Below, in pieces: positions 21,288 to 58,982 of a DNA stretch of 58,982 nucleotides; within the stretch, counting starts at the first letter, position 1; the number at the start of each line of letters is the position of its first letter. The translations under genes and the position numbers were made by a program. Under the pieces are notes generated by a model. It was not told the DNA's origin. It searched no databases and was given only the letters and a program-made list of their open reading frames with translations. This DNA is from Rhodovulum imhoffii (GTDB lineage: Bacteria > Pseudomonadota > Alphaproteobacteria > Rhodobacterales > Rhodobacteraceae). Location of the stretch: contig NZ_QAAA01000015.1 of the NCBI RefSeq assembly GCF_003046545.1, forward strand, positions 1 to 58,982. Direction: 5' to 3'.

Positions 21288-21320
21288 CCCGCCGAACGCA
21301 GCACCCGCACGGCGGTGGCG

Positions 21321-21830: not shown

Positions 21831-21851
21831 TGATCATCCCCAGGATGATCA
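21831..21851. repeat. TGATCATCC-CCA-GGATGATCA hairpin
   Basis: Perfect 9-bp stem with a 3-nt loop just before the -35 of the antitoxin promoter, within a stretch rich in TGATCAT motifs (21762-21851). It could be a terminator or a boundary structure between the opposing phage and cassette transcripts. Confidence 0.6.
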
Positions 21852-21880: not shown

Positions 21881-21901
21881 AATCGGCGAAGGAGACCGAT
21901 T

Positions 21902-22757: not shown

Positions 22758-22771
22758 AGAGCCAATCGGCA

Positions 22772-24050: not shown

Positions 24051-24065
24051 GGGAGATTTCCTTTC

Positions 24066-24641
24066 TCATAGGTGCCGTTTGGCTCTGAGGTGTTTTCGAA
24101 TGCGGCCGGTTTTCAGCGCGGCCACATGCGCGACGCTGACGCCAAAAGCCCCGGCGACCTCTCGCCGGGAATAGCCAACGTCCAGGCAATCAAGCATGCG
24201 CAGACATTGGTGGTCGGTCATGCGGGACAGATGCGAGCGATCTCCGCACAGCATCGTGCCGTGCTCACGCTTGTGTTCGATGTTCTCGCGCTGCGAAACA
24301 TAGGCGAGGTTCTGGGCGCAGTTGTTCGACTTGTCGCCATCGAGGTGAGCGACGACCAGCCCGTCTGGTCGCGGCCCCAGAAAGGCAGCCGCGACGAGAA
24401 TATGCAGAGCAATCCGCTGCCGGGCACCTCTGCCGCCACGCACCAGTGTGTGGTGCAGATAGCCTTCGGGGTCACACCACGGCTGTCGAACAGTCCAGTC
24501 TTTCTGGTCCAGCCAGCGAGAGCGCGCACCGCGTGGGATCCTACCCTTGCGATGCGCGCTCCAGACCTGACCGGTGCGGTTGATGTGATATCCGGGGAAC
24601 CCCGGCACCGGCACAGCGCCCTGTCGATCATCGATCGTCAT
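24066..24641 (-). CDS. Free-standing HNH homing endonuclease (NUMOD4/HNH_3)
   Basis: A 191-residue site-specific nuclease that spreads its own gene. The N-terminal NUMOD4-like segment is VPGFPGYHINRTGQVWSA. The HNH core shows GLVVAHLDGDKSNNCAQNLAY (H, then N near its end) followed by NIEHK. A C-terminal helix-turn-helix (YSRREVAGAFGVSVAHVAAL) gives DNA specificity. It occupies the gap between the major capsid and DUF2190 genes, a common place for phage homing endonucleases, and is not needed for capsid function. Confidence 0.85.
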   Translation of the reverse strand: MTIDDRQGAVPVPGFPGYHINRTGQVWSAHRKGRIPRGARSRWLDQKDWTVRQPWCDPEGYLHHTLVRGGRGARQRIALHILVAAAFLGPRPDGLVVAHLDGDKSNNCAQNLAYVSQRENIEHKREHGTMLCGDRSHLSRMTDHQCLRMLDCLDVGYSRREVAGAFGVSVAHVAALKTGRIRKHLRAKRHL

Positions 24642-24655
24642 GGGGGTCGCCGATC

Positions 24656-26719: not shown

Positions 26720-26724
26720 ATGGG

Positions 26725-28269: not shown

Positions 28270-28475
28270 CAGCGATCCCCGCGCGAGAAGCCGGCGAAGC
28301 CCGCGATGGGCCGCGCCGTGGTCCCGGCGATCTGGCGCTCGATGGTGCGGATGCGCCCGAGCAGATCCTCGGCCGAGCCGTAGTCCACGGTCTTGCCGTC
28401 ATAGCTGACGCGCGTCGTGCCGCTCGCATAGGCGCGCCTGAGCGCCGCGAGCTCCGCTTCCGTCCAGTCCGCCAT
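28269..28475 (-). CDS. gpW-like head-tail joining protein
   Basis: A 68-residue protein starting MADWTEAELAALRRAYASGT, with TRVSYDGKTVDYGSAEDLLG and a helical end (RIRTIERQIAG). This is the size and pattern of lambda gpW, which binds between portal and connector. It sits between terminase and portal genes as in lambda. The long open frame that continues upstream in the same phase runs antiparallel to nothing useful and overlaps the terminase gene, so only the last 68 codons are taken. Confidence 0.85.
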   Translation of the reverse strand: MADWTEAELAALRRAYASGTTRVSYDGKTVDYGSAEDLLGRIRTIERQIAGTTARPIAGFAGFSRGDR

Positions 28476-28477
28476 GT

Positions 28478-41999: not shown

Positions 42000-43275
42000 G
42001 GATCACCAGCCCCCGCTCGGCCCGCGTGATCGCGGTGTAGAGCCAGCGGTTCCTGTCGGCCGCCGAGCGACCGAAGCCATCGTCGAAGACGACCACGTTC
42101 TCCCATTGCAAGCCCTGCGCCTTGTGGCAGGTGATGGCGTAGCCCCAGCTGCTCTCGATGAGGCCGCGCTTGATCTGCCATTCCCGCCGCCCGCGCTCGG
42201 GGTTGTAGGCGATGTGGTCGGCATACTCGCCGCGCCAGAAGCTCTGCCGTCCAGCGATGGTCTCACCGTCCTCGGTCTCGACCATGGCGCTGAAGGCGAA
42301 GGCGTCGTCGGGATCCTGGCGCACGTCGCTCAGCGTCAGGAACATGCCGTTGATCAGCCCGAGATCGTGGCGGTTCTTCAGGCAGATGATCTTCTCGCCG
42401 TGGCCTGTCGGATAGTCGGCCTCGAACCCGGCCGCGCGCTTCATGGCGGTGTTGAGCCAGCGCCGCGTCGCGTTGGTGCCGCAGAGCACCTGTCCGCCGC
42501 GCAGCATCTGTGCCGGGCCGACATCAAAGCGCGACATCTTCCAGACGTGGTCGTCATGCGCGCCCATCGGGATCGGCGCGCCCTGCCGCGCGAGCGTGGC
42601 GAGCCGCAGGATGGCGCTGTCCTCGGCCTGCCGGTGCACCTCGGTCAGCATCACGTCCGGCGCGGCCTCGGTGAAGAAGCCGGCGCCCTTCACAGGCGGC
42701 AGCTGGCCCGGATCGCCCAGCACCAGGATGGGCTTGCCGAAGGCGAGAAGGTCGCGCCCAAGGTCCTCGCCCACCATCGACACCTCGTCGAGGACGAGGA
42801 GATCCGCGTCGCGCAGGATCGACTGCTCGTTGATCAGGAACTTCGGCTGGTGGATGTCCTCAAGCCGCATCTCGAGCTGGGCGATCCGGGTCATGGCGAA
42901 GTCGCGCTCGGCCGGCCCCATGCGGGGTAGCTCGCGCCGCAACTCGGCCAGGTCCTCGGTCACCCGCTCGATCTCTTCCGGCGTCGCCTCGGAGACGCGG
43001 TAGATCAGGCTGTGGATCGTCTGCGCGGGCGTGCCCTTGCGCGTCATGACGAGCGCGGCCTTGCCCGTGAAGGCGCCGAAGAGCACGCCGCCCGGGGCGC
43101 CGGGAGTCATCGGCGCCAGCTCCAGCGCCTCGATCGCCTGCGCGGTGGTCGTGGTCTTGCCGGTCCCGGCATAGCCGAACACGCGGAACACCTGCTGCTC
43201 GTGGCGGCGGGTCTCGTACCAGTCGCGGATCGCCGCGATGGTGCGGCTCTGCATGTCGGAAAGTGTGACGGTCAT
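41992..43275 (-). CDS. RecD/Dda-like ATP-dependent DNA helicase
   Basis: A 427-residue superfamily 1 helicase. Walker A FGYAGTGKTTTTAQAI (near residue 35), motif II LLVLDEVSMVGEDL, motif III ILVLGDPGQLPPVKG, and motifs V/VI GYAITCHKAQGLQWENVVVFD with LYTAITRAERGLVIL. This is the compact RecD-like/Dda form found in phage replication modules, probably acting at forks or in recombination. It starts by ATGA overlap with the nuclease gene. Confidence 0.92.
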   Translation of the reverse strand: MTVTLSDMQSRTIAAIRDWYETRRHEQQVFRVFGYAGTGKTTTTAQAIEALELAPMTPGAPGGVLFGAFTGKAALVMTRKGTPAQTIHSLIYRVSEATPEEIERVTEDLAELRRELPRMGPAERDFAMTRIAQLEMRLEDIHQPKFLINEQSILRDADLLVLDEVSMVGEDLGRDLLAFGKPILVLGDPGQLPPVKGAGFFTEAAPDVMLTEVHRQAEDSAILRLATLARQGAPIPMGAHDDHVWKMSRFDVGPAQMLRGGQVLCGTNATRRWLNTAMKRAAGFEADYPTGHGEKIICLKNRHDLGLINGMFLTLSDVRQDPDDAFAFSAMVETEDGETIAGRQSFWRGEYADHIAYNPERGRREWQIKRGLIESSWGYAITCHKAQGLQWENVVVFDDGFGRSAADRNRWLYTAITRAERGLVILA

Positions 43276-44099
43276 GCTGTGGCCTCCGGCCGTTCGCCGC
43301 TGAAACGCTCCACCGGAGCGTTTCCTAGACGCGGCTCACCCCAGCAACGCGCCGAGAACGGGCAGAACCGGCAGAGATAGAAGTCGGGGCGCGTGGCGAT
43401 CCGCGGCAGCAGCTCGCCCGCATCCGCGGCGCGCAGCACAGCGACCGCCTTGTCGGAGAGTTCCTGCGCGGTCGCGGGCTCGAAGTGGACGTGCTCTTGG
43501 TAGAGTTCGCAGCTGTCCTTGTTCAGCGCGGTGAAGAGCGCCGAACCGAGGCCCATGTAGGCCATGTAGATCTGCATCTGCCCGAAATAGACGGGCTTTG
43601 AGAGCCGGACGCCCTTCTTCGCGGTGTCCGACCAGGATGACGCCTTCAGCGCCTTGTGCTCCCAGAGAACCGGCCAGGCGATGCCCACCTCCGGGCCGGC
43701 GACGATGACGCCGTCGACATGGCCGCGGATCCGGCCGCCCGCAGTCTCGAAGCCGAACTGGCCGCCCTCGCGGGTCTGGGTGCGCAGGTCGAACCCGGCC
43801 AGCCGCAGCCAGCGGATGGAGAGATCCTCGAAGACATGGCCGGCGGCGAAGATGCGCAGACTGCGCCCCTCGATCTCCTTGCCGGGATCGGGCGGCGTAT
43901 GGGTCACTTCATAGACGAGGCGGCGCGCGCAGGGCTCGCCGATCCGGCTGGCGCCGAGATAGTCACGGGGCCGCTGGCCAGCGCGCTCGGCCACGAGCGC
44001 GTCATCGAGCAGCGTATTGATCCGGGCGCCGAGCGGCGGCGGGGCATCCGCGGCGCGGCCGTAGACGAAGCCTGAGCGGTGGTTGAGATCGACCAGCAT
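43272..44099 (-). CDS. PD-(D/E)XK nuclease, Cas4/RecB-like
   Basis: A 275-residue exonuclease of the RecB/Cas4-like group. HVFEDLSIRWLRLAGFD gives the first conserved acidic helix, GRIRGHVDGVIV the Asp, and VLWEHKALKASSW the E-x-K. Four cysteines (GEPCARRLVYE near the N-terminus and LCRFCPFSARCWG near the C-terminus) fit an Fe-S cluster. With the neighbouring Sak4-like ATPase and ssDNA-binding protein it forms a phage recombination set. The ATG at 44099 was chosen because the conserved region begins just after it. The frame continues upstream as antisense shadow. Confidence 0.85.
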   Translation of the reverse strand: MLVDLNHRSGFVYGRAADAPPPLGARINTLLDDALVAERAGQRPRDYLGASRIGEPCARRLVYEVTHTPPDPGKEIEGRSLRIFAAGHVFEDLSIRWLRLAGFDLRTQTREGGQFGFETAGGRIRGHVDGVIVAGPEVGIAWPVLWEHKALKASSWSDTAKKGVRLSKPVYFGQMQIYMAYMGLGSALFTALNKDSCELYQEHVHFEPATAQELSDKAVAVLRAADAGELLPRIATRPDFYLCRFCPFSARCWGEPRLGNAPVERFSGERPEATA

Positions 44100-44110
44100 C
44101 CGCGCCCCCC

Positions 44111-44452
44111 TCAGAACGGCACGTCGCCGGCGTCGGACTGGCGCTGCATCGACGCCTGAAATCCGTCGACGCAGGCCTCGATCAGGCGGTCGATGTCCTC
44201 GGCCGGCCGGTCGAAGAAGGGCTCCATCAGCCCCATCTCCGTCAGCGCCTCGGCCAGCTCGCGGCGCGCGTCGCGGATCGCGCGGGTTTCCATGTCGGTC
44301 TTGTCGATCATGCCGTGGTTCCTCTTGGCGTTGGCCGAACCCGCCGTGAGGCAGGCCATGGAGCAGAAGCGGTGATGGGGGTGGCGGTCCCAGCGCAGGC
44401 CGTGGCAGTAGCCGAAGCCCCGGGCCTCCCGGCCGCAGAGCGCGCAAGGCAC
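44111..44452 (-). CDS. Small zinc-finger protein, DUF6511-like
   Basis: A 113-residue protein with a treble-clef-like cysteine set (PCALCGREARGFGYCHGLRW and RFCSMACLTAG), followed by a helical part (METRAIRDARRELAEALTEM, IDRLIEACVDGFQASMQRQ). It matches the DUF6511 type next to phage recombination genes. No ATG is available at the right place. I took GTG at 44452. A CTG at 44479, overlapping the upstream stop as CTGA, is the alternative. The function is unknown; binding to nucleic acid is plausible. Confidence 0.65.
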   Translation of the reverse strand: MPCALCGREARGFGYCHGLRWDRHPHHRFCSMACLTAGSANAKRNHGMIDKTDMETRAIRDARRELAEALTEMGLMEPFFDRPAEDIDRLIEACVDGFQASMQRQSDAGDVPF

Positions 44453-44475
44453 GCGGCGGCAGAGTTCGGCCCGGG

Positions 44476-44709
44476 TCAGCCCATGAGCAGGAGGTCGAGC
44501 GCGCTTCGCTCCTCCTCGTCGGGCGCGGCGGTTCGGCGCTCGGAGGCCAGCACAATGAAGCGGCTGATGGCGTTCGAGGCCATGCATTCCAGGTCGCGCC
44601 GGGTGAGGCTCGCGATGGGGCGGTCGAGCCGCCCCCGCGCCTCGAGCCAGCGCCCCATCGCAAGGGCCGCCTCCGTGGTGACATGCGCCTGCCATTCGTC
44701 CGGGCTCAC
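44476..44709 (-). CDS. Small phage protein of unknown function
   Basis: A 77-residue helical protein (VSPDEWQAHVTTEAALAMGR, RRDLECMASNAISRFIVLAS) that begins with a GTG overlapping the stop of the ssDNA-binding gene as GTGA. It ends just before the DUF6511-like gene. Only its place in the recombination operon hints at a role. The longer upstream frame is a shadow of the ssDNA-binding protein tail. Confidence 0.65.
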   Translation of the reverse strand: MSPDEWQAHVTTEAALAMGRWLEARGRLDRPIASLTRRDLECMASNAISRFIVLASERRTAAPDEEERSALDLLLMG

Positions 44710-45443
44710 GGGTTCAGCCAGGCCGGGCCGCCCGCAGCCTTCGGCGCGGCGGGCTCGGGCGCAGGTTGGGCGGCAGGCTGGGAGGCCGGCGACGACCACG
44801 CGGGCGCGGCCGGGGCCGCGGCGGGCTGCGACTGGCCCCAGGCGGGGGTTGCGGGCTGCGCGGGCGCGGCGGCCGGCCGGGGCTTGTTCGAGGGCTGCGC
44901 CGGCACCGTCTCGCCGGCCATCACCTTCTGCCACTCGGGCGCGGTGGGCAGCACGACATGGTCGAGCTTGTTGGCGTCCTTGTAGGCGGGGTTGCGGTTC
45001 GGCTCGATCTGGATCTTCGCGACGAAGGTGATCCCGTCGAGATCGGCGAGCCCGCGCAGGACGCGCTTGGCCTTGGCCGCCTCGCTCATGTCCTCCGGGT
45101 TCAGGCCGAGCGCGCTGTCGATCATGGCCCGGAACTGGCTCTTGGAGATCTTCCAGCCGATCGACTGGCCCTGCTCGTCGAGCTTGCCGCCCTGCACGGT
45201 GAAGTTCTGCCAGAACTTGCGCCGGGCATGCGGTCCTTCGGCCACCGTGAACTCGGCGTCGAGCATCAGCACGTCGCTGCCGGGCTGGTTCGAGGGCTTC
45301 AGGAGGCCGCAGTCCACCTCGCTCGCCCCGTCCGTGCCGCCCTTGCGGATGGACATCGTCACCTTGGCGAAGGTGCCGTCGGGGATCAGGTCGCCGGACT
45401 GCTGCGGCGCCACGTCGTTCATGTCGAAGGTCATCTCGTTCAT
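44706..45443 (-). CDS. Phage single-strand DNA-binding/annealing-type protein (DUF669-like)
   Basis: A 245-residue protein with a beta-rich N-terminal domain (DLIPDGTFAKVTMSIRKGG, DVLMLDAEFTVAEGPHARRK, FWQNFTVQGG) and a central helical part (ISKSQFRAMIDSALGLNPED). A long Pro/Ala/Gln-rich C-terminal tail ends GGPAWLNP. The layout is that of phage ssDNA-binding proteins with a flexible tail. It is encoded directly after the Sak4-like ATPase by ATGA overlap, a pairing known from Sak4/SSB recombination modules. The Ala/Pro tail replaces the usual acidic tip. Confidence 0.72.
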   Translation of the reverse strand: MNEMTFDMNDVAPQQSGDLIPDGTFAKVTMSIRKGGTDGASEVDCGLLKPSNQPGSDVLMLDAEFTVAEGPHARRKFWQNFTVQGGKLDEQGQSIGWKISKSQFRAMIDSALGLNPEDMSEAAKAKRVLRGLADLDGITFVAKIQIEPNRNPAYKDANKLDHVVLPTAPEWQKVMAGETVPAQPSNKPRPAAAPAQPATPAWGQSQPAAAPAAPAWSSPASQPAAQPAPEPAAPKAAGGPAWLNP

Positions 45444-46288
45444 CCTTTCGATGCGTGGTTGATCTTGGAGAGGAGCGCGCCGAGATCGGCCGGCTCGGTC
45501 AGGTCGAGGCGTCCCGAGCGGTCCTTCGCGGGCAGGCCCCACGGGTTGCCGGAGCGGCAGACGAGGCGACGCGTCTCGCCCTTCTCGGGGTCGTGCCGCC
45601 AGGCGGTGGCGCCATCGGGGCCGGTCTCGGGGCTGAAGAGGCCGAGGGTCATCACCTGGTCGACGATGCCGGGCAGCTCGCGCGCGGCCTTCCCGCCCTC
45701 CATCTGCGGCTGCCAGATCGTCCGGTTCATCTCGTCGGTGATCCGCTCGAGAATGCCGACGAAGATCACGGTGCGGCCGGGCGCGTGCTGGAGGTGCTTG
45801 AGGAGCCCGATCACCTCGCGAGCGAGCAGCCCGTAGGCGCCGCGCGTGTCCGGCTTGCCCGTGCGCTCCGACATCGCTTCGGGCCGGGTCTTGGCCCAGG
45901 CCATTGCCTGGCGCGTGAGGTCGGTGATGCTGTCGACGAACACGATGCGCTTGGCGTCGAGCCGTGCAGCGAGTTCCGGGTGCTGTCCGCGGAGATGCGC
46001 ATGGTGCGCCTCCGAGAAATGCTCGTCGGGCTGGGCCGCGGGGTTTGCGCCGCCGATCAGACAGGCGATGTCCACAGCGTCGGCGAAGCGGCGGATCGGC
46101 AGGCTGTCGCCGCGCCAGTCCTGCACCGACTTCAGCCCGGCTTCGAGATCGAGGCAGACGGTCTCCTCGGCCGGCAGCGTCTTCAGCAGCGTGGTCTTGC
46201 CGGCGCCGCTCGGACCGAACAGCGCCATAGTGGTCTTGCCCTGCGCCTCGCGCAGCCGCTCGTCGGCGGTGACGATCCGGAGGCTCAT
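45440..46288 (-). CDS. Sak4/RecA-like AAA ATPase
   Basis: A 282-residue RecA-fold ATPase: Walker A ALFGPSGAGKTTLLKTL, ETVCLDLEAGLKSVQDW, and Walker B RIVFVDSITDLTRQAM. A later segment, TVIFVGILERITDEMNR, fits the phage nucleotide-binding (AAA_24, Sak4-type) group. Such proteins promote single-strand annealing with their SSB partner, here the next gene. ATG at 46288, overlapping the upstream stop by 4 bp. Confidence 0.85.
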   Translation of the reverse strand: MSLRIVTADERLREAQGKTTMALFGPSGAGKTTLLKTLPAEETVCLDLEAGLKSVQDWRGDSLPIRRFADAVDIACLIGGANPAAQPDEHFSEAHHAHLRGQHPELAARLDAKRIVFVDSITDLTRQAMAWAKTRPEAMSERTGKPDTRGAYGLLAREVIGLLKHLQHAPGRTVIFVGILERITDEMNRTIWQPQMEGGKAARELPGIVDQVMTLGLFSPETGPDGATAWRHDPEKGETRRLVCRSGNPWGLPAKDRSGRLDLTEPADLGALLSKINHASKG

Positions 46289-46821
46289 GCCGCGCCTCCC
46301 TGCGGCAGAAGCTCGACCTTCAGCGCGCCGGTGCGCACGGTCCGGGCGGGCTCGAACACCGCCCGGATGTTGTCGGGCCAGGCGGCGTATTTGCGCTCGG
46401 GCACCTTGATGGCGATGTCGACATACTGGGCGGGGTCGTCGCCCGAGGCCCGGATGCGCTCGACGATTTCGCTGAGCCGGTCCTGGTCCCAATCCACCCG
46501 TTTCGGCAGATCGGCCACCACGGTGAAATCGCCGTCGTCGAAGCGGACGGTGCCGGTGTCCTTGGCGCGGACCTGCCGTTCTTCGGCGGCGCGGGTGGCG
46601 TATCGGACGGTCAGCGCGGCATCGAGCCGGGCTTTCGCCGCCCTGGCGCGCATTAGCGCCTCCTCGGTCTCGCGCTGCAGGATGGCGAGCAGTTCGACGG
46701 GAAACTGCGCGAGTTCGGCGTCGGGGATGCCCGGCAGGTCTTCGGGCGTGGGGCTGTTGTTCGGCCAGGGCATGAACGGGTCTCCGTGATCGGCGAATGG
46801 GGTCTGGATGTGGGAGGTCAC
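46285..46821 (-). CDS. Phage protein of unknown function in the recombination operon
   Basis: A 178-residue protein starting with GTG (GTGA overlap with the previous stop). It contains LPGIPDAELAQFPVELLAIL, a long helix (ETEEALMRARAAKARLDAAL), then a beta-rich half (GTVRFDDGDFTVVADLPKRV, YVDIAIKVPERKYAAWPDNI). The type recurs in Rhodobacter phages upstream of the Sak4-like ATPase. Possibly a DNA-binding accessory protein, but no motif proves it. Confidence 0.68.
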   Translation of the reverse strand: MTSHIQTPFADHGDPFMPWPNNSPTPEDLPGIPDAELAQFPVELLAILQRETEEALMRARAAKARLDAALTVRYATRAAEERQVRAKDTGTVRFDDGDFTVVADLPKRVDWDQDRLSEIVERIRASGDDPAQYVDIAIKVPERKYAAWPDNIRAVFEPARTVRTGALKVELLPQGGAA

Positions 46822-47168
46822 GCCGCCTGCTCCTCGAGCAGCCGCGCCGACAGCGAAGCGGCGGCATGCTTGGGCTTCGGGCGCGCGACGGCGATGTAGG
46901 CGAAGCGGTCGGGGCCCACGCGCTCCTGCACGAGGTGGACGAGGCCCTGCTCGGCGGCCCAGAAGGCGCGCGATCCGAGCCGCGACAGTTCCTCCCGCTC
47001 GCGGTCCGCGAGGCGGCCGAGCATCGGGAAGATGTCGAGCACGAGGAAACCGCGATGGTATTCGAGCCGGTCGCCGGGCGCGGCCTGCGCCACCCACGCG
47101 CAGAACTCGATCTCGCTCAGCGGGCGGCTGGCGCGGACGGTGATGAAGGGGGTGTTGCCCATGAACAT
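46818..47168 (-). CDS. Phage protein of unknown function
   Basis: A 116-residue protein starting MFMGNTPFITVRASRPLSEI (or two codons later). It has a compact alpha/beta middle (EFCAWVAQAAPGDRLEYHRG, FLVLDIFPMLGRLADREREE) and VHLVQERVGPDRFAYIAVAR near the C-terminus. GGAG lies 8 bases upstream. It is the first gene of the recombination/replication operon downstream of the sigma-like regulator. I recognise it as recurrent in related prophages without a known function. Confidence 0.7.
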   Translation of the reverse strand: MFMGNTPFITVRASRPLSEIEFCAWVAQAAPGDRLEYHRGFLVLDIFPMLGRLADREREELSRLGSRAFWAAEQGLVHLVQERVGPDRFAYIAVARPKPKHAAASLSARLLEEQAA

Positions 47169-50365: not shown

Positions 50366-50569
50366 ATGAAACGCCCCAATCCTCTACCACCCGACCAGAT
50401 GACTCCCGCCGAGCGCCGCGCCGAACTGTGCGGCCTGCTGGCGCTCGGGCTGGTCCGGTTGCAGCTACGCGAGCGCGGCGAACCTTCTGATGATACTGGA
50501 GAAAATCGCCTACACTCTCCGGCGAGCGCATGCCGTCATGCAACTCCAACTCACCGGAGAACCGCATGA
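50366..50569 (+). CDS. Small protein of the serine-recombinase module
   Basis: A 67-residue protein starting MKRPNPLPPDQMTPAERRAE, then LCGLLALGLVRLQLRERGEP. This N-terminal pattern is a familiar companion of the DUF2924-recombinase pair in alphaproteobacterial prophages. The stop overlaps the DUF2924 ATG (ATGA), which supports translation. Its function is unknown. It heads a four-gene plus-strand unit that marks the phage end. Confidence 0.7.
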   Translation: MKRPNPLPPDQMTPAERRAELCGLLALGLVRLQLRERGEPSDDTGENRLHSPASACRHATPTHRRTA

Positions 50570-51018
50570 CGACCCATGATCCCATCCCCGCGCGCCTGGC
50601 CGCGCTGAAGACCGCCACGACGCAGGAGTTGAAGGCGCAGTGGCGCGACCTGTTCGACAGCGAACCGCCACCCTTCAACCGCCGCTACCTGGAAAGCCGG
50701 CTGGCATACCGCATCCAGGAGCTGGCCTATGGCGGGCTGAAGCCCGAGACGATCCGGCGGCTGGAGCGGCTGGGCGAAGACCTCGATGGCGGCGACCGGA
50801 AGAAAAGCCGCATCCGCGCCGACACGATGCCCATCACCGGCACGCGGCTGATCCGCGAATGGCAGGGCGTGGAGCATGTCGTCACCGTCACTTCGGACGG
50901 CTTCGAATGGCAGGGACGGCCTTACAAGTCGCTGTCCGCCATTGCCCGCGCCATCACCGGGACGCACTGGAACGGCTGGGTGTTCTTTGGCCTCAAGAAC
51001 CGGAGGGCGCGGACATGA
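50566..51018 (+). CDS. DUF2924-family protein
   Basis: A 150-residue protein of the DUF2924 family (PARLAALKTATTQELKAQWR, LESRLAYRIQELAYGGLKPE, GTRLIREWQGVEHVVTVTSD, FEWQGRPYKSLSAIARAITG). It is nearly always encoded next to large serine recombinases in Alphaproteobacteria and is probably an accessory or DNA-binding factor for integration. It overlaps the recombinase ATG by 4 bp. Confidence 0.9.
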   Translation: MTTHDPIPARLAALKTATTQELKAQWRDLFDSEPPPFNRRYLESRLAYRIQELAYGGLKPETIRRLERLGEDLDGGDRKKSRIRADTMPITGTRLIREWQGVEHVVTVTSDGFEWQGRPYKSLSAIARAITGTHWNGWVFFGLKNRRART

Positions 51019-52325
51019 CGAAACCGATCGTCCGGAAACTGCGCTGCGCGATCTACACGCGCAAGTCCTCCGAGGAAGGACTGGAGCAGGAGTTCAACTC
51101 GCTCCACGCCCAGCGTGAGGCCTGCGAGGCGTTCATCGCAAGCCAGCGCTCTGAGGGCTGGGTGCTGGTCCGCGATCAGTATGACGACGGCGGCATCTCG
51201 GGCGGCACGCTGGACCGGCCCGGCCTTCAGCGCCTTCTGGAGGACATCGAGGACGGGCTGGTAGATGTGGTGGTGGTCTACAAGATCGACCGCCTCAGCC
51301 GATCGCTCGCGGACTTCGCCAAGCTGGTCGAGGTGTTTGACCGGAACGGCGTAACTTTCGTCTCGGTGACGCAGTCGTTCAACACGACGACCTCCATGGG
51401 GCGGCTGACGCTGAACATCCTGCTGTCCTTCGCCCAGTTCGAGCGGGAGGTTACGGCCGAGCGCATCCGCGACAAGGTCGCCGCCAGTCGGAAGAAGGGC
51501 ATGTGGATGGGCGGGGTGCCGCCCTACGGCTACCGCGTCGAGAACCGGAAGCTGGTGATCGACGAGGAGCACGCCGAACACGTCCGCTGGATCTTCGCCC
51601 GCTTCCTCGAGATCGGCTCCGGGACGGAACTGGCGCGGGAGGTCGCGAAGCGCGGCATCCGCACGCCCCGCGGCAACCGGGTCGACAAGAAATACCTCTA
51701 CCGGATGCTGAACAACCGCGCCTACATCGGCGAGGCGGTCCACAAGGGCGAGAGCTACCCCGGCGAGCACGACGCGATCATCGACCGCGAGACGTGGGAT
51801 CGCGTCCACGCCATCCTGCAGGAGAGCCCGCGAAAGCGCGCCGCGCGCACCCGCGCCGAGACGCCCGCGCTGCTGAAGGGGCTGCTGTTCGGCCCCGATG
51901 GTGCAGCATTCTCGCCGACGCATACCCGCAAGGGCGGGCGGCTGTACCGTTACTACGTCAGCCAGACTGTGCTGAAACATGGTGCCGGTTCGTGCCCGGT
52001 GGGCCGCGTGCCGGCCGGTGAGATCGAGGCGGCCGTCATCGACCAGCTGCGCGCCGTGTTCCGCCAACCCGAGATCGTGGCTGGGACATGGAAGGCCGCG
52101 CGCGCCCACGCAGACGACATCACCGAGGCCGACGCCCGTGCGGCCCTGCAGCAACTCGACCCGCTGTGGGACGAACTCTTCCCCGCAGAACAGGCCCGCA
52201 TCGCGGCGCTGCTGGTCGAGCGCGTCGACGTCGGCACAGGCGGATTGAACGTCCGGCTCCGGATGGACGGCCTCGGAGGGCTCGCGCGCGAGATGCTGTC
52301 TGGCAGCATCGGAGCAGCGGCATGA
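51015..52325 (+). CDS. Large serine recombinase (phage integrase)
   Basis: A 436-residue site-specific recombinase. The resolvase domain shows AIYTRKSSEEGLEQEFNSLH with the nucleophilic Ser, YDDGGISGGTLDRPGLQ, and VVYKIDRLSRSLADF followed by QFEREVTAERIRDK. The recombinase domain reads GGVPPYGYRVENRKL, GIRTPRGN and NNRAYIGEAVHKGESYPGEH. A zinc-ribbon-like region and coiled-coil end follow. It should integrate and, with a directionality factor, excise the main prophage. Its attachment site should lie close to its 3' side. Confidence 0.93.
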   Translation: MTKPIVRKLRCAIYTRKSSEEGLEQEFNSLHAQREACEAFIASQRSEGWVLVRDQYDDGGISGGTLDRPGLQRLLEDIEDGLVDVVVVYKIDRLSRSLADFAKLVEVFDRNGVTFVSVTQSFNTTTSMGRLTLNILLSFAQFEREVTAERIRDKVAASRKKGMWMGGVPPYGYRVENRKLVIDEEHAEHVRWIFARFLEIGSGTELAREVAKRGIRTPRGNRVDKKYLYRMLNNRAYIGEAVHKGESYPGEHDAIIDRETWDRVHAILQESPRKRAARTRAETPALLKGLLFGPDGAAFSPTHTRKGGRLYRYYVSQTVLKHGAGSCPVGRVPAGEIEAAVIDQLRAVFRQPEIVAGTWKAARAHADDITEADARAALQQLDPLWDELFPAEQARIAALLVERVDVGTGGLNVRLRMDGLGGLAREMLSGSIGAAA

Positions 52326-52705
52326 CCCGCGGGGCCCCGGTCCCCGACACGGTCACGCTCCACGTTCCGTTCCGGATCGTGAAGCGTGGCGGGAAGAAAG
52401 AGATGCAGTTGCCCGACGGCGCCACGCAATCGCAGCGGACTGACAACACGCTGGTCAAAGCGCTGGCCCGTGCGTTCCGATGGAAGCGGATGCTCGAATC
52501 GGGCGAATACGCCACCATCGCCGAACTGGCCGAACGGGAGGGCATAGCGCCCTCCTACACGACCCGCGTTCTGCGGCTCACGCTGCTCGCGCCTCGCATC
52601 GTCGAGGCGATCCTGGACGGGAAGCAGGGACCGGAGGTGACACTGGGGCGGCTGCTTGAACCCTTTCCAGCCGACTGGGCGCGGCAGCACGATGGCACCA
52701 GCTGA
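52322..52705 (+). CDS. HTH protein coupled to the serine recombinase
   Basis: A 127-residue protein starting MTRGAPVPDTVTLHVPFRIV, with KALARAFRWKRMLESGEYAT and an HTH (IAELAEREGIAPSYTTRVLR, LTLLAPRIVEAILDGKQ). ATGA overlap with the recombinase. Proteins of this kind follow serine recombinases in many alphaproteobacterial prophages and may act as recombination accessory or directionality factors, though this is not established. Confidence 0.8.
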   Translation: MTRGAPVPDTVTLHVPFRIVKRGGKKEMQLPDGATQSQRTDNTLVKALARAFRWKRMLESGEYATIAELAEREGIAPSYTTRVLRLTLLAPRIVEAILDGKQGPEVTLGRLLEPFPADWARQHDGTS

Positions 52706-52951: not shown

Positions 52952-53842
52952 ATGATGCAAGATAACGCCATCGCTGTGCTTCATACAGATGACGATCGTG
53001 GCAGCGACGTTCATCGCCTACAAAGGGACTGTAACGCCGAGATTGCCTGCGAGGACAATCTGAAGTTCATGCGTCGTCTGCCGGACGAGTCCATGAGCTT
53101 GATAGTCACGTCCCCGCCATACAACATTGGTAAGGCTTACGAGAAGCGCACGTCGCAGGACAAGTACGTCGAAGACCAAGCCGCGTGCATCGCAGAAGCA
53201 GTTCGCCTCCTCGCGCCTAAGGGATCCATCTGCTGGCAAGTTGGCAATCACATCGATAGCGGCGAGATATTCCCGCTCGATATTCTACTTTACCCGCTCT
53301 TCAAAAACCACGGGCTTCAGCTTCGCAACCGGATCGTCTGGACATTCGGTCACGGCTTGCACTGCCAGAAGCGATTCTCGGGCCGGCACGAGACAATTCT
53401 TTGGTTTACAAAATCTGAGGACTATACGTTCAACCTAGACCCTGTTCGCATCCCATCAAAGTATCCAAACAAGAAGCATTTTAAAGGGCCCAACAAGGGG
53501 GAGCTATCGAGCAATCCCCTCGGGAAGAATCCCTCCGATGTCTGGGACATTCCCAACGTCAAATCCAACCACGTGGAAAAGACTGATCATCCCTGCCAGT
53601 TCCCTATAGGACTTGTAGAGCGCTTGGTCTTGGCGTTGACGAATGAAGGTGAGAGCGTGCTTGATCCATATCTCGGTGTGGGCTCGTCTGCGATCGCGGC
53701 ATTGAAACATGGCCGCCACGCCTACGGATGCGATCTTGACAGGGCCTACATCGACATTGCCTGGAGGCGGATTCACGAGCTACGCGCCGGCACACTCAGA
53801 ACCCGCCCTATGAACAAACCTGTCTATGATCCCAAAGCATAG
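52952..53842 (+). CDS. DNA methyltransferase, beta class (N4-cytosine/N6-adenine)
   Basis: A 296-residue amino-methyltransferase with motif order of the beta class: LIVTSPPYNIGKAYE (motif IV) near residue 55, then LLAPKGSICWQVGNHIDSGE, and the SAM loop DPYLGVGSSAIAALKHGR (motif I) near the C-terminus. It would methylate the host at the operon's recognition site. GC is lower than in the adjacent phage genes. It starts the plus-strand operon 52952-58405. Two consecutive ATGs are possible starts. Confidence 0.9.
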   Translation: MMQDNAIAVLHTDDDRGSDVHRLQRDCNAEIACEDNLKFMRRLPDESMSLIVTSPPYNIGKAYEKRTSQDKYVEDQAACIAEAVRLLAPKGSICWQVGNHIDSGEIFPLDILLYPLFKNHGLQLRNRIVWTFGHGLHCQKRFSGRHETILWFTKSEDYTFNLDPVRIPSKYPNKKHFKGPNKGELSSNPLGKNPSDVWDIPNVKSNHVEKTDHPCQFPIGLVERLVLALTNEGESVLDPYLGVGSSAIAALKHGRHAYGCDLDRAYIDIAWRRIHELRAGTLRTRPMNKPVYDPKA

Positions 53843-53850
53843 GGGGATCT

Positions 53851-54315
53851 ATGAAGCTTGCCTACACATACGAAGATCATCATAGCGCAGGAGCCGAATG
53901 GGAACGGCGCGACCTAAAGGAGTGGCTCACTGACGTCTTCGAAGCGCCGGCCGTAAAGATTGAGCCACGCTGTACGCCGCAGATACGAAAGCATGTTGAA
54001 AACGAATTCCTTAACGAGGGATGGGCGCTAAACGTCAATCTCGATCAGGCGCACGGTCTGAGTGTTTTTGCCATGCAGGACGATCTGGCGTTTCAACTTC
54101 AGACCGGAAACATGAGTCGCGCGCCGTATGATCTTCTGAAGCTTCAATACCTCTTTCAGAGCGAGCGCATTGAGGCTGCCGCGCTCGCTTTGCCGACGAG
54201 GGAAGCTGCGAAGATAATTGGAGACAACATCGCCAATGCCGAGCGCGTCATCAAGGAACTGGAGCTGTTCGACCGTGTAATCACAGTACCGATCCTCGTC
54301 GTCGCATTTCAGTGA
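53851..54315 (+). CDS. Candidate BglII/BstYI-type restriction endonuclease
   Basis: A 154-residue protein that resembles BglII/BstYI-fold restriction enzymes. A short helical N-terminus is followed by VNLDQAHGLSVFAMQDDLAF, QLQTGNMSRAPYDLLKLQYL and a strand-rich end (FDRVITVPILVVAFQ). The Asp...Q-x-Q spacing mimics the D...E-x-K/Q active site of PD-(D/E)XK enzymes, with Gln in place of Glu. Its place 9 bases after a methyltransferase gene supports a restriction role. Without a structure comparison this remains a moderate-confidence call. It could be an inactive specificity protein. Confidence 0.55.
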   Translation: MKLAYTYEDHHSAGAEWERRDLKEWLTDVFEAPAVKIEPRCTPQIRKHVENEFLNEGWALNVNLDQAHGLSVFAMQDDLAFQLQTGNMSRAPYDLLKLQYLFQSERIEAAALALPTREAAKIIGDNIANAERVIKELELFDRVITVPILVVAFQ

Positions 54316-54326
54316 AGGGGATTTCT

Positions 54327-55658
54327 ATGACCTACAAGATTACTCTCAAACCCCGCGCCGAACGCGAAGCCATGATCGCCAAGCGCCTTGAAGCCTCGGA
54401 TGAATTTGGCGAGACGATTTACGATTTTCGCAGCGGGTCATTCACGCCCAAGGTCATCTCGCTACCAATAGACGTGCCTGTCTATCGGATGGAAAACTGC
54501 CGCACATTCAGCGCGCAACAAACCGAGATCGCGCGCGAGGGTCTGGCAAAAGACTTCTTTGAAAAGGGGCAGGAACTAACGACGGCCCAGCAGGCACAGC
54601 ATGAAATTCTTGCCAAACTTGCCAAGCAAGGGACGGAGTCCGTTACCCCCATCATCTCGGTTCTCGAAAAAGATGGACAGCGCGAGACTATCCTCATCAC
54701 AAGCACGGGTGTCGTGATCAATGGCAACCGCAGGCTTGCCGCTATGCGCGAACTCAAGACCCGCAAAGACGGCGCGGTCGATGAACGTTTTACAAACATC
54801 AAATGCGCCGTCCTACCCCCTGACGTGACGCGAGATGAGATCGATGACATCGAAGCTGACCTCCAGGCTCGTCCGCAGACCAAGCTCGACTACGACTGGA
54901 TCGGTGATGCACGCCTGATCCGCCGCCAGGTGGGAAAAGGTCGTTCCACCAAGGAGGTCGCCGACCGCCTGCGCCGAAGCAAGCCTGACATCGAGAACGT
55001 CCTGCAAGCTCTCGATGAGGCAGATTTGTATTTGAGCGAGTGGGTCAAGAAACCTGGCGAGTACGATTTGCTTCAAGACGGGCAACAAATCTTTGGCGAT
55101 CTCCCGAAGGCCATAGCCAAAAAAGACGTCAATCTCCAGAATGCTAGCCGCGCGATTGCCTGGTCGATCTACGAGAACCGAGATAAAATTAGTGGGCGCG
55201 TCTACCGCCTCAACGCCGCTTTCGGAAAGCTCGCGCCAAAAGTGCTGGAAATCCTCGATGAGCGGCTCGAACTTCCTTTCAATGACGATGAAGACCTCGT
55301 CGATGATGATGATTTTGCCATCGACATCGATGATGACGGCATTAGCAAAGACTACACGCCGATTATCGACGCGTTGCGCGACGCCGACGGTAATGACGAC
55401 AGGATCATGACCCTAATCGATGCCTGCGAAACGGCTATCGAACTCGACAAAGGCGAGAAGAACGAGGAAGCGGCGCTTAAAACACTTGCACAGGTCAATT
55501 CCAAGGTGACGGGCATCGATATCAGCGCCGCGGGCACATCGACACTGCCAGCGATCCTCAAGCAAATTGGATCGATCCGCAAAAATCTCGACAAGATCGA
55601 GACGACTGTAAAGGCTCGGCAGCAAGGCGGCGCGTCCGACACTGAAGGGGAGGAGTAA
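54327..55658 (+). CDS. ParB-like domain protein of the defence operon
   Basis: A 443-residue protein. A ParB/Srx-like motif, TSTGVVINGNRRLAAMRELK, lies near residue 140, after a long N-terminal region (FRSGSFTPKVISLPIDVPVY). An HTH-like part follows (QVGKGRSTKEVADRLRRSKP). Then comes a strongly acidic stretch (DDEDLVDDDDFAIDIDDD) and a coiled-coil C-terminus (LKQIGSIRKNLDKIETTVKA). ParB-like domains hydrolyse CTP/ATP and act as DNA clamps. Here it probably recognises DNA or controls the helicase encoded next. The start at 54327 has AAGGGGA before it. Confidence 0.75.
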   Translation: MTYKITLKPRAEREAMIAKRLEASDEFGETIYDFRSGSFTPKVISLPIDVPVYRMENCRTFSAQQTEIAREGLAKDFFEKGQELTTAQQAQHEILAKLAKQGTESVTPIISVLEKDGQRETILITSTGVVINGNRRLAAMRELKTRKDGAVDERFTNIKCAVLPPDVTRDEIDDIEADLQARPQTKLDYDWIGDARLIRRQVGKGRSTKEVADRLRRSKPDIENVLQALDEADLYLSEWVKKPGEYDLLQDGQQIFGDLPKAIAKKDVNLQNASRAIAWSIYENRDKISGRVYRLNAAFGKLAPKVLEILDERLELPFNDDEDLVDDDDFAIDIDDDGISKDYTPIIDALRDADGNDDRIMTLIDACETAIELDKGEKNEEAALKTLAQVNSKVTGIDISAAGTSTLPAILKQIGSIRKNLDKIETTVKARQQGGASDTEGEE

Positions 55659-55664
55659 GCCTGC

Positions 55665-57575
55665 GTGAGCGATGCCCCGACTGCCGTTTCTGTTCGGTAT
55701 AACCCCGATCACACGGGCACGCTTTCCGTGCCTGAAGACGCGCTCGAAACCCCCATCTGGTCACGCCTGAAGCTGGCGATCCGTACCAAGAAGCTCGACC
55801 ACACTCTTGCTGGCAGCGAGATCAATCTCTCATGGCCTGATACGCTAGGCGTGGTTCGCGAGCTTGGCAGCAAAGCTAACCAGAAAAGCCTTCACTTCCG
55901 CTTCAGACCTGAAGGCGAAGCCGCCGACAAGCTCCGTGCCTTCACAGCGCAGATAAAGAAAACGCGCGAACAACGCGGCGAGATCACCGAAGTGCTCTCG
56001 CCCGATGAGATCGAAGAAAAGCTAAAGGCCACGGGCTTTACAAAGCGTGAGCTTCGTGACTTTCAGCTTCGCGATCTCTCTCACCTTCTTGCCCTAAGCA
56101 ACGGCGCAAATTTCTCCGTGCCTGGCGCGGGCAAGACCACCGTGACATTCGCGCTGCATATGTTGACGCGCCAACCAGGTCAACACTTCATCGTTGTCGC
56201 CCCGAAAGCCGCCTTCCAAGCATGGATGGACATCGTTGATGAGTGCATGGAAGACGATGCACCCTATGGCGGCGCTGAACCCTTCACGCTTCTCGTCGGC
56301 AGCGAAGACGAAAACCGTAGAGCGCTTCACTCCGGCGCGACACGGTTTATCATTTCCTACGACATGGTGATCCGTCAGCAGGGAATGCTGGCAGCACACT
56401 TCGCCACTACGCCGACCCATCTTGTTCTCGACGAAGCTCACCGCATGAAAGCCGGCTGGCAGTCGCAGCGCGGCGCATTCTTCCTGCGCACGGCCGATGA
56501 TCCCGTGCGGCGCGATATCCTGACCGGGACGCCCATGCCGCAGGCAGCGTCCGACATGGAATCCCAGCTCGACTTCTTGTGGCCAGGGCACGGCTATGGC
56601 CTTGAAATCTCGCACGGGAAGTCGCCGCGCGAAGTGCTTGGCAATCTTTATGTCCGCACCACCAAGACCGAACTTGGCCTTCCACCCGCGGAGCGGCATT
56701 TCATCGATGTCGGAATGGATTCAGGGCAACTCGCGCTGTACTCCATCGTTCGCAACGAATTCATCCGCGACTACTCCAAACAGCTTTCGCGCGGCATGGG
56801 TGACGCGCAGTTCTTGCGCGCGCGGCGCTCGGTCATGCGCCTTCTTCAGCTTTCCATCAATCCGGCCTTGGCGCTGAGCGCGATGGCCAACGATGACGTC
56901 AAGGTAGACTCAAATATCGTCGATCTCGTCCTCGACGAAGGCCATTCTGCCAAGATGCGGGCGGTCATGGACCACGCCTATTCTCTTGCTAGGGAGGGCA
57001 AGAAGTGCGTGATCTGGACGATTTTCACTGACACGATCCATAGCTTTGTGTCGGCTCTGGCCGATCTTAACCCCGTTTACATCCACGGCGGCGTGCCGTC
57101 CGGTCTTCCTGATGATCCTGAATGCAGGGAGGGGCGTATACGCCGCTTTCATGAAGACTCAGGTTGCTTCGTCCTTGTCGCCAACCCCGCTGCCGCAGGC
57201 GAAGGGATCAGCCTTCATACCGTGTGTCACCACGCGATCTATGCCGACCGCAGCTATGTCTCGACGCATTATCTTCAGTCCATCGACCGGATTCATCGCC
57301 TCGGCCTCGGCCCGGACGAAGAAACCCACATCCGCATCTATCGCTCGAAAGCGCCGCCCGTAATCGGCAGCATCGATATGTCGGTGAGCCGCCGCCTTGT
57401 CGAGAAAATCCGCAATATGCAGCAGCTCCTCGACGATCCCGATCTCCATGAGATCGCCTTTGACGAAGAAGAAGCCGCAGATCCCCTCGATTATGATGTC
57501 GAACTAAAGGACATTATCGACCTCATTGCAGAGCTGGAGGGTACCGCGCCAGCCGCTCCGTCGGAGGAAGTATGA
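55665..57575 (+). CDS. SNF2-type DNA helicase/translocase
   Basis: A 636-residue SF2 ATPase. N-terminal 120 residues of unknown type, then motif I FSVPGAGKTTVTFAL (151-159), HFIVVAPKAAFQAWMDI, DEAH box HLVLDEAHRMKAG (256-259), motif III RDILTGTPMPQAASD, and a C-terminal helicase domain with VLVANPAAAGEGISLHTVCH and motif VI YLQSIDRIHRLGLGPDE. The pattern is SNF2-like, fit for tracking along double-stranded DNA. GTG start 6 bases after the ParB-like stop. It probably drives DNA surveillance for the nuclease at 57572. Confidence 0.88.
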   Translation: MSDAPTAVSVRYNPDHTGTLSVPEDALETPIWSRLKLAIRTKKLDHTLAGSEINLSWPDTLGVVRELGSKANQKSLHFRFRPEGEAADKLRAFTAQIKKTREQRGEITEVLSPDEIEEKLKATGFTKRELRDFQLRDLSHLLALSNGANFSVPGAGKTTVTFALHMLTRQPGQHFIVVAPKAAFQAWMDIVDECMEDDAPYGGAEPFTLLVGSEDENRRALHSGATRFIISYDMVIRQQGMLAAHFATTPTHLVLDEAHRMKAGWQSQRGAFFLRTADDPVRRDILTGTPMPQAASDMESQLDFLWPGHGYGLEISHGKSPREVLGNLYVRTTKTELGLPPAERHFIDVGMDSGQLALYSIVRNEFIRDYSKQLSRGMGDAQFLRARRSVMRLLQLSINPALALSAMANDDVKVDSNIVDLVLDEGHSAKMRAVMDHAYSLAREGKKCVIWTIFTDTIHSFVSALADLNPVYIHGGVPSGLPDDPECREGRIRRFHEDSGCFVLVANPAAAGEGISLHTVCHHAIYADRSYVSTHYLQSIDRIHRLGLGPDEETHIRIYRSKAPPVIGSIDMSVSRRLVEKIRNMQQLLDDPDLHEIAFDEEEAADPLDYDVELKDIIDLIAELEGTAPAAPSEEV

Positions 57576-58405
57576 GCGGAACGATCTCGACTGAGCGGCT
57601 TTTCTCGTTGCCCTGCTTTGAAGGGCTGCGTCTTCTTCGCAAATACATGGCCGATCATCCCGATCTGACGACCCCCGATCTTCTGTCCTTAATCGATCGT
57701 GTCGAAGCCGACGCGCACAGCCTCGATATGGAGGCCTCGGTCTATCTCTCCGAGATCGTCGAAAAGGACTGCCCGCTCAACGGCCATGCCTTCTATCAAA
57801 CGTGCATAAGGGGTGTTCTACTGAAGCATCAACCGATCTGGGCGAAGCTCATGCGCCAGGGTCGTCAACGCTTCGTCAAAAAGCTCGATCCCAACGATCA
57901 GGATATCTTTGCCGCCGCTGGCCTCATGGAGAGCCCGACGCCTATCCACGTCGTTAAATGGTGGGATTCTGTCTCCGGCTATGCCCGCGTTCTGACCGAT
58001 CAGGAAAAGATGGAACAAGGGCGAGCGGCGGAGGTCCTGACGTTGGAATATGAGCGCGAGCGGCTTAAGGCCCTCGGGATCGACCTGGAACCCGAATGGC
58101 CTGGCTTCGATGACAACTTCGCGGGCTACGACGTGCTGTCCTACGACCATGGCCCACATGGAATCCAAAACAAGCTGATCGAGGTGAAATCGACTACCGC
58201 CTCACCACTGCGTTTCATCCTTACTCGCAACGAGTGGGAAAAAGCAGAGCAGGCTGGCGACTCCTATCGCTTTCACGTCTGGGATATGACGCAGGATCCG
58301 CCTCATCTGGTTGAGCGCACGGTCGCTGACGTTGTGCCGCACATTCCCGCTGATAGCGGCAAAGGCCGATGGACAAATACGCAAGTGCCGGTTTTAAATC
58401 ACTAA
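57572..58405 (+). CDS. DUF3883 nuclease-like protein
   Basis: A 277-residue protein. The N-terminal half is helical (CFEGLRLLRKYMADHPDLTT, SVYLSEIVEKDCPLNG). The C-terminal half is a DUF3883/PD-(D/E)XK-like domain: a conserved GYDVLSYDHGPHGIQ (Asp), NKLIEVKSTTASPLRF (E-V-K), and LTRNEWEKAEQAGDSYRFHV, matching the order N-E-W..A...Y..Y typical of this domain. DUF3883 domains recur in anti-phage and restriction systems. It overlaps the helicase stop (ATGA), so the two are made together. Confidence 0.85.
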   Translation: MSGTISTERLFSLPCFEGLRLLRKYMADHPDLTTPDLLSLIDRVEADAHSLDMEASVYLSEIVEKDCPLNGHAFYQTCIRGVLLKHQPIWAKLMRQGRQRFVKKLDPNDQDIFAAAGLMESPTPIHVVKWWDSVSGYARVLTDQEKMEQGRAAEVLTLEYERERLKALGIDLEPEWPGFDDNFAGYDVLSYDHGPHGIQNKLIEVKSTTASPLRFILTRNEWEKAEQAGDSYRFHVWDMTQDPPHLVERTVADVVPHIPADSGKGRWTNTQVPVLNH

Positions 58406-58749
58406 AAATTCATTCGAGCGGTATCTCTGGCAGACAATCTGATCGGCTATGCAGAGAAGAAGGTGCATCGGATTTCAAGCGTAGAACGTTTGACGCCCGT
58501 TCCTTCTTGACGGTTGCCACCGGCGTCGAAGTGTTCGGGGTGGCCTCAGAAAAACGCCGTATTGCCAGGTTCTTACAAGCTATTCACTAAAGCACGGCAG
58601 TCATGAGGTCCAGAGAATATCGGCCTTGAGAGAACGCTTCCGGGCCACCGCGCACCGGGGCCAGTGGTCAGCCCCTCCCGCATAACCCTCGAAAACAACG
58701 GAAAAATCCGGTCGCAGCCGGATCGGGAGAACGCTTTCGCGGGGGCAAG
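58406..58749. other. Non-coding gap before tRNA-Ser
   Basis: No supported gene. Short open frames lack ribosome-binding sites and recognisable products. No repeat of the tRNA 3' end was found in the window, so this is not obviously an attachment duplicate. Confidence 0.5.
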
Positions 58750-58839
58750 TGGCGGAGACGAAGGGATTCGAACCCTCGAGACGGTTTCCCGCCTACTCCC
58801 TTAGCAGGGGAGCGCCTTCGACCACTCGGCCACATCTCC
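58750..58839 (-). tRNA. tRNA-Ser (GCT)
   Basis: Read on the minus strand, GGAGATG (58839-58833) pairs with CGTCTCC before the discriminator G, and CCA is encoded (58752-58750). The anticodon loop CTGCTAA gives GCT (serine, AGC/AGU codons). A T-arm GGTTCGAATCC and a long variable arm typical of tRNA-Ser are present; total 90 nt. tRNA-Ser genes are frequent integration sites, consistent with an island border here. Confidence 0.95.
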
Positions 58840-58982
58840 GGCGACGCTTTTACCGATCCAAATGACCAAGAACAAGGGCAATATTTGCGGGACTGTTGCG
58901 TTAATTGCCTTGAGGCGGGGTGATGCCGTGACATGCCATTGATTACCCGGCGTCTTGGAAGAGTTACCGGATGAACTGGATC
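58840..58982. other. Window edge upstream of tRNA-Ser
   Basis: The tRNA promoter should lie here on the minus strand. No gene is seen up to the window end. Confidence 0.4.

Follow-up and report, generated by a model that had tools for sequence, protein, structure and literature searches.

A five-gene operon of Rhodovulum imhoffii joins a BglII-fold protein without catalytic acids to a ParB-like/SNF2/DUF3883 core: a candidate variant of restriction-modification

In a 58,982-nucleotide contig of Rhodovulum imhoffii (NZ_QAAA01000015.1; hereafter, the window), we found an operon of five plus-strand genes that encode a DNA methyltransferase, a protein related to the type II restriction enzymes BglII, BstYI and BamHI, a ParB-like protein, an SNF2-family ATPase and a DUF3883 protein (Table 1). 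The BglII-like protein has kept the fold of its family and lost the catalytic acids, and we think it probable that the operon is a restriction-modification (R-M) architecture in which this dead type II enzyme acts as the target-recognition subunit of a ParB/SNF2/nuclease machine, which is probably ATP-dependent. An earlier note, made from the letters of this DNA, had proposed a five-gene operon; we confirmed its open reading frames (ORFs), and the junctions between them are, in order, 8 bp, a 4-bp overlap, 6 bp and a 4-bp overlap. The ParB-like gene perhaps starts at ATG 54327, which would leave an 11-bp gap in place of the first overlap, because the L002 homologue begins where this ATG lies and an AAGGGG run is found immediately upstream of it. 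The methyltransferase, SNF2 motor and DUF3883 nuclease identities named in the earlier note are backed by Pfam matches over cut-off. The methyltransferase also matches PADLOC MTase_II at 2.7e-82, and among its relatives that are linked to a ParB-like/SNF2 core, an SPPY motif is present in 28 of 29 and NPPY in the other one.

To the label "BglII-like" both sequence and structure lend support. Pfam Endonuc-BglII (PF09195) matches the second gene product at E 5.9e-6 (26.6 bits; cut-off 26), and its structure model has a mean predicted local distance difference test (pLDDT) score of 96.0, with one of the five models poor at 41.0. A structure search with this model places it with BstYI (4.2e-9), BamHI (1.4e-8) and BglII (7.4e-7); ranks 1–16 in the PDB are all BstYI, BamHI, BglII or OkrAI (E 4e-9 to 8e-6), and rank 17 has an E of 0.08. 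In profile alignments, AIEVQFGK of BstYI, GMEFETGN of BamHI and ALEWETGN of OkrAI lie opposite AFQLQTGN in the BglII-like protein. The TGN motif is kept, and Q82-L83-Q84 corresponds to residues 128–130 of BstYI (chain numbering) and to residues 111–113 of BamHI. At the acid column of this motif, the 30 core-linked copies have Q (24), C (5) or N (1), so that an acid is found in 0/30, and the 22 usable free-standing relatives have E (18) or D (4), an acid in 22/22. The first D of the motif, read by eye, is seen in all 22 free-standing rows and in 0/30 core-linked copies. The free-standing set began as 23 rows, from which L080 was removed (wrong frame); of the 37 rows that match PF09195, the remainder consists of L081, L087, L091 and L098 (internal stop or partial), L096 and L097 (core-linked), L099 (identical to L084) and seven without a locus. 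The genomes with free-standing copies are absent from the class-sample genomes that match the core SNF2 protein. Judged by its sequence, the BglII-like protein is a pseudo-enzyme. The methyltransferase and BglII-like protein had been described in the earlier note as a complete R-M unit, a claim that does not survive the loss of the catalytic acid in every core-linked copy. Because of this loss, and because there is no other PF09195 match in the window's genome, cutting must come from elsewhere, and most likely it would come from the DUF3883 protein, in which the predicted D..ExK site is intact.

We consider it very improbable that the BglII-like protein still cuts through a rearranged active site, in which case the operon would hold an ordinary type II R-M pair and an unrelated ParB/SNF2/DUF3883 cassette. 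Relocated catalytic residues are known among PD-(D/E)XK enzymes, and D78 was considered as such a residue; it was invariant in a first alignment of 23 rows but not across the wider set of 29 core-linked copies, which leaves out L036. In those 29 copies the sole invariant acids are D94 and E136, and both lie in modelled helices, so we see no replacement acid on a strand of the model. A rearranged site would fit the retention of the fold and the TGN motif, as well as the acid that is kept in a BanI-like family (Y, below); however, the loss is found in all core-linked copies examined, in more than one lineage and with varied replacements (Q, C or N; V/I and I/V), and the linkage to the core is conserved.

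To see how widely the core occurs, we scanned GTDB contigs with the ParB-like alignment (45 loci) and viral contigs (IMG/VR) with the SNF2 alignment (40 loci). After near-identical loci were merged, there were 79 distinct loci with ParB-like and SNF2 genes, 60 of them with DUF3883 too; the loci were collected by homology, and neither number is a frequency. Three loci with a ParB-like gene and no SNF2 gene (L038, L039 and L042) were excluded from this count, and L048 and L058 stop before any SNF2 gene, although the X copy of L048 is still among the 19 core-linked X copies compared below. At E 1e-60 the SNF2 profile matches 6 of 385 genomes in a sample of the class and 3 of 398 in a sample of the phylum, with the window's own genome in both counts. 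Rare as it is, the ParB-like/SNF2/DUF3883 core is present in distant bacteria and among viral contigs. The full BglII-type order is found in records titled Roseovarius, Paracoccus, Thalassospira, Azoarcus, Mucilaginibacter and Ruminococcus, among others. The gene order is kept far beyond this strain, the conservation that the earlier note had proposed to check, and because an identical order is found in distant bacteria, the arrangement is not a product of chance.

The gene in front of the core varies. This slot, mostly immediately upstream of the ParB-like gene, holds a BglII/BstYI-like gene in 30 of the 79 loci (27 with DUF3883 and 29 with an N4/N6-type methylase; of the three without DUF3883, L032 ends ~500 bp past SNF2, and the sequences of L005 and L034 stop within that gene). 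An X-family gene is found in 19 loci, 17 with DUF3883 (the L046 sequence stops just past SNF2, and L052 is without DUF3883), and 8 have a BanI-like Y gene or were grouped with Y (L127 starts at the ParB-like gene). A further 8 loci have DUF3883 but no BglII/BstYI-, X- or Y-type gene, and 14 have neither. A C5-methylase lies within the fetched stretch of 18 of the 19 X-type cores, and that of L008 sits elsewhere on the same plasmid. In plasmid matches, the ParB-SNF2-DUF3883 trio is preceded by a gene other than that of the window.

Members of the BglII/BstYI family appear from their sequences to have been recruited by the core at least twice. In L036, the same slot holds a BstYI-like protein of ~206 amino acids (PADLOC REase_II, 2e-45), in which N replaces both the D and the E of the catalytic site. 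In a tree of 42 of the 52 rows, core linkage requires two changes, forced by the starred branches, and 0 of 200 bootstrap trees show one, with the caveat that L036 is a long branch of unusual composition. A search of viral contigs with L036 gave no further dead BstYI-like copies, so this lineage rests on a single sequence.

In the X family, both acids are gone in 19/19 copies in the core slot, with V/I and I/V in their place, and the K is kept (the 19 do not include L047 and L054, which are near-identical to other rows). In X' relatives outside the slot, D..(D/E)xK is kept in 11/11. We assigned X as a restriction enzyme from its match to PADLOC REase_II PDLC03501 (5e-18) and from the X' relatives, whose copies beside a C5-methylase match the same profile at 2e-137 and 2e-120. 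A C5-methylase adjoins 10 of the 11 X' genes, and the eleventh, L158, is in an unannotated record. Of 18 plasmid records, nine are in the X' set (H13, H16, H17, H19, H21, H22, H23, H25 and H27), together with L011 (also H20) and L050. H15 (Kozakia) was left out, its gene being split into two ORFs, H14, H18, H24, H26 and H28 are not in the set, and the genes of H29 and H30 belong to the core-linked X copies. Two loci, L011 and L050, carry X and X' together (25% and 28% identical), and in such X-type loci the machine could be a second layer beside an intact cognate enzyme. In our reading, the core is a module into which two or more type II restriction enzyme families have been drawn, in lineages whose core-linked copies lack the acids. 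In the Y family (8 distinct loci), the motif reads D-V-S or D-I/V-T; we do not claim Y as a further dead enzyme, since the motif is E-V-S or E-I-S even in BanI relatives that stand free.

Two observations were made at X-type and related loci. On the Kozakia plasmid pKB14400_4 (L159), the methylase-paired restriction enzyme is split into two ORFs and the core-linked dead copy is whole. A GIY-YIG-like protein is found near the C5-methylase in L041, L043, L045–L047, L159, L161 and L162, annotated as such in L159, L161 and L162; in the remaining loci the assignment is made from how the sequence begins.

Conserved motifs are found in all three core proteins, in row counts that include some near-identical rows: the Walker A sequence FSVPG[AS]GKT of SNF2 in 56/56 rows, D187, E204 and K206 (D..ExK) of DUF3883 in 48/48 rows, with E154 and E221 likewise, and NGNRR in 57/61 ParB-like rows. 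The SNF2 profile matches a solved SNF2/Rad54 helicase at 2.6e-40. DUF3883 has been described as a novel restriction endonuclease domain, which occurs in R-M operons in fusion with an SNF2 helicase (PMC3710099). For the ParB label given in the earlier note, the third gene product has a ParB-like match in PHROGs (2.2e-4), three of its homologues are named ParB by RefSeq, the NGNRR motif is widespread, and HTH_ParB on the L129 homologue reaches 22.1 bits (cut-off 22.6); the Pfam match of the window's protein is below cut-off, as given below. A query with this protein of 50,697 phage records gave zero matches. The ParB label is a weak one, and the role of this protein is the least certain of the five.

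The dead enzyme does not look like a gene in decay. Between the window and L014, the ratio of nonsynonymous to synonymous substitution rates (dN/dS) is 0.029 for the dead restriction enzyme, 0.039 for the methylase, 0.047 for SNF2, 0.051 for the ParB-like protein and 0.093 for DUF3883; synonymous sites are saturated in most other comparisons. The pairwise distances of the five proteins correlate at 0.90–0.97 (210 pairs, which are non-independent). Because of these ratios and correlations, we conclude that the dead enzyme is not decaying and that the five genes travel together.

Taken together, these data suggest a mechanism in which the methyltransferase would mark self DNA at a site and the dead BglII-fold protein, as the target-recognition subunit, would bind that site when it is unmethylated. 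The ParB-like protein, as an adaptor or a nucleoside triphosphate (NTP)-dependent clamp, would link the dead enzyme to the loading of the SNF2 translocase. Cutting of the foreign DNA would fall to the DUF3883 PD-(D/E)XK protein. The marking and cutting roles are predicted from the conserved motifs of the methylase and DUF3883, and the reading role of the dead enzyme rests on its fold, the loss of acids, its slot and its constraint; we infer binding, a complex, ATP-driven movement, cleavage and defense. The earlier note had the ParB-like protein and the SNF2 motor recognize DNA and recruit DUF3883, which may be so, but we find the dead restriction enzyme the better candidate for recognition. 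It is unlikely that the dead enzyme is instead a regulator, which might repress the operon in a methylation-sensitive way or might sit on unmethylated self sites until these are methylated and keep the core quiet. Several restriction enzyme families in one slot fit an exchange of specificity better than they fit a regulator, and the gene in that slot, which in most loci comes just before the ParB-like gene, evolves along with the core; a regulator would account for a DNA-binding fold kept without its acids, for the control that toxic nucleases need and for the existence of cores without a restriction enzyme, as expected of an add-on. We judge the odds to be even that this is a new class of R-M, in which a portable ParB/SNF2/PD-(D/E)XK machine has time and again taken over type II restriction enzymes, with no catalytic acids in the core-linked copies, and employs them as target-recognition subunits that are interchangeable and sensitive to methylation.

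Several results weigh against the proposed mechanism or against its generality. Some cores have no restriction-enzyme-like gene, with a methylase only in L067, L068, L069 and L113 and neither gene in L012 and L138, so the core can run on other inputs or without such a gene. DUF3883 is absent from the fetched stretch of L052 and of L035 (which has a short SNF2-like gene), and ParB-SNF2 pairs without DUF3883 adjoin other genes, for example one for a type III Res-like protein. The BanI-like Y proteins are not evidently dead, because an acid is retained at the motif, and the X model has no match in the PDB at E 1e-3. The ParB-like protein matches Pfam ddrB-ParB below cut-off (E 0.015, 15.9 bits against 27.6), and a search by sequence found no relative of it in the PDB. 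Cores with a methylase only or with neither companion would also suit a core that senses DNA alone, in which the ParB-like protein or SNF2 reads phage DNA, ends or forks, the methylase and restriction-enzyme-like genes are mobile companions and defense is abortive or suicidal. The companion genes do swap rapidly, and other candidate defense proteins contain DUF3883 domains; however, the methylase and the restriction-enzyme-like gene stay with the core across large distances, and we regard this explanation as improbable.

Other gene arrangements were seen around the ParB-SNF2 pair. In L136, L137, L144 and L150, four of the 14 loci with neither DUF3883 nor a BglII/BstYI-, X- or Y-type gene, a protein of ~990 amino acids is encoded directly before ParB-SNF2, with no DUF3883 in the fetched stretch; that of L136, the one scanned, is a type III Res. 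In L139, L141 and L143, there is a C5-methylase (downstream in L139), an uncharacterized gene, ParB-SNF2 and a downstream gene of ~400 amino acids, the product of which is perhaps another nuclease that replaces DUF3883.

We compared the operon with known systems. In agreement with the earlier note, which did not recognize the gene order, a scan of the five proteins against PADLOC-DB 2.0.0 gave no named system, and we found no account of the arrangement in full-text searches of an open-access library, which covers neither subscription papers nor bioRxiv preprints outside PMC. In PADLOC-DB 2.0.0 the ParB-like protein is without any match, and DUF3883 weakly matches PDC-S36, TmtA and PD-T4-1. Zorya, Dpd and DISARM have SNF2-type helicases (ZorD, DpdE and DrmD), as does this operon, and the window's SNF2 protein has weak PADLOC matches to ZorD (3e-10), DpdE (4e-10) and DrmD; however, it falls far below the NCBIfam family cut-offs (DrmD, 20.8 of 610 bits; DpdE, 18.6 of 500; ZorD, 13.4 of 1500). 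With type II R-M systems such as those of BglII, BstYI and BamHI, the operon shares a methyltransferase (PF01555) and a protein of that restriction enzyme fold. It differs in that the catalytic D and E are gone from every core-linked copy examined here, that a self-sufficient cognate restriction enzyme appears to be missing and that three extra genes form a likely cutting machine. Types I and III R-M would be alike in having separate specificity, an ATP-driven motor, a nuclease and a self-marking methylase, whereas specificity here would lie with a dead type II enzyme; in PADLOC, no HsdR/HsdM/HsdS or Res/Mod match is found among the best 25 of 67 methylase rows or among the rows of the other four proteins.

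The closest in parts are the BREX-related BR systems, for which the excerpted description gives a methylase, an SNF2 helicase, an active PD-(D/E)XK nuclease and an inactive restriction enzyme domain (PMC12839542). In that excerpt the inactive part is a degenerate domain within the helicase, whereas here it is a separate relative of type II restriction enzymes, and the operon appears to lack further core parts that are described there. To BREX itself we found only a weak BrxHII similarity of the window's SNF2 protein (0.024), and PADLOC-DB 2.0.0 predates the BR systems. The DUF3883-SNF2 proteins of R-M operons share the DUF3883 nuclease domain and SNF2 in an R-M neighborhood; their partner is HEPN-AAA, and the excerpted text mentions neither ParB nor a dead type II restriction enzyme (PMC3710099). 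We regard the operon as a new variant of R-M; proof of the targeting role would justify a separate class for it. If the role we propose for the dead enzyme is true, restriction enzymes that once cut DNA can be converted, and more than once have been, to supply specificity to an ATP-driven machine, and this would connect type II enzymes to types I and III, which are built of several subunits. Restriction enzyme annotations in such loci would then be wrong, and the loci would be a natural case in which recognition modules can be exchanged while the motor and nuclease stay the same.

Table 1. Features of the operon and its neighborhood in the window
Feature	Position	Strand	Evidence
DUF2924 protein, first gene of recombinase platform	50530..51018	+	Pfam PF11149 E 1.9e-54; relatives adjoin other cassettes
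Large serine recombinase of platform	51012..52325	+	Pfam Resolvase/Recombinase/Zn_ribbon
Small helix-turn-helix (HTH)-like protein of platform, inferred function	52322..52705	+	Weak MarR/HTH similarity
Beta-class N4/N6 DNA methyltransferase, predicted self-marking enzyme	52952..53842	+	PF01555 E 3.8e-50 (N6_N4_Mtase)
Protein of BglII/BstYI/BamHI fold that lacks catalytic acids, predicted target-recognition subunit	53851..54315	+	PF09195, model, acid column
Q82-L83-Q84 codons, place of ExQ/ExE active-site motif	54094..54102	+	Alignments
ParB-superfamily-like protein with NGNRR motif, possible NTP-dependent clamp/adaptor	54312..55658 (or from 54327)	+	
SNF2-family ATPase, predicted DNA translocase	55665..57575	+	PF00176 E 4.1e-12 (SNF2-rel_dom)
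DUF3883/NOV_C protein, predicted PD-(D/E)XK nuclease, cutter	57572..58405	+	PF13020 E 8.5e-16
tRNA-Ser	58750..58839	-	

The operon lies between a recombinase module and tRNA-Ser and has a lower GC content than the prophage, as the earlier note had it: 1-kb windows across 53–58 kb have a GC of 0.54–0.59, and of the 40 such windows at 8–48 kb, 38 have 0.617–0.735 and two (36–38 kb) have 0.56–0.58. The platform upstream of the operon looks like a shared carrier of exchangeable cassettes, made up of the DUF2924, serine recombinase and HTH-like genes. Copies of the recombinase that are 74–86% identical over at least 419 amino acids occur in L043, L046, L119, L123 and L135, and relatives of the platform stand beside differing cassettes (X in L046 and L123, BglII-like in L119, ParB-SNF2 only in L135); in L043, the X cassette is on the other side of the platform and reversed. 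The cassette starts ~100–470 bp past the HTH-like gene in the window, L046, L119 and L123. To the left of the platform are phage tail, head and terminase genes, and the trio may be a carrier and not the integrase of the prophage.

Within the phage region, minus-strand genes at 11200–30472 and 43272–46867 encode phage tail, tape measure, head-protease and terminase proteins, a Cas4-like exonuclease and a Sak4-like annealing protein, and a gene at 34276–35613 (minus strand) encodes a single protein that combines a ParB-like domain with a DNA methylase (PHROGs). We considered tRNA-Ser as an attachment site and rejected it, as a second copy of its 3' end was not found in the window. At tRNA-Ser, 58566–58840 is similar (79% and 77%) to two further places in the genome. 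A stretch of 45 bp at 58888–58932 recurs exactly on another contig, and these repeats are possible relics of integration sites.

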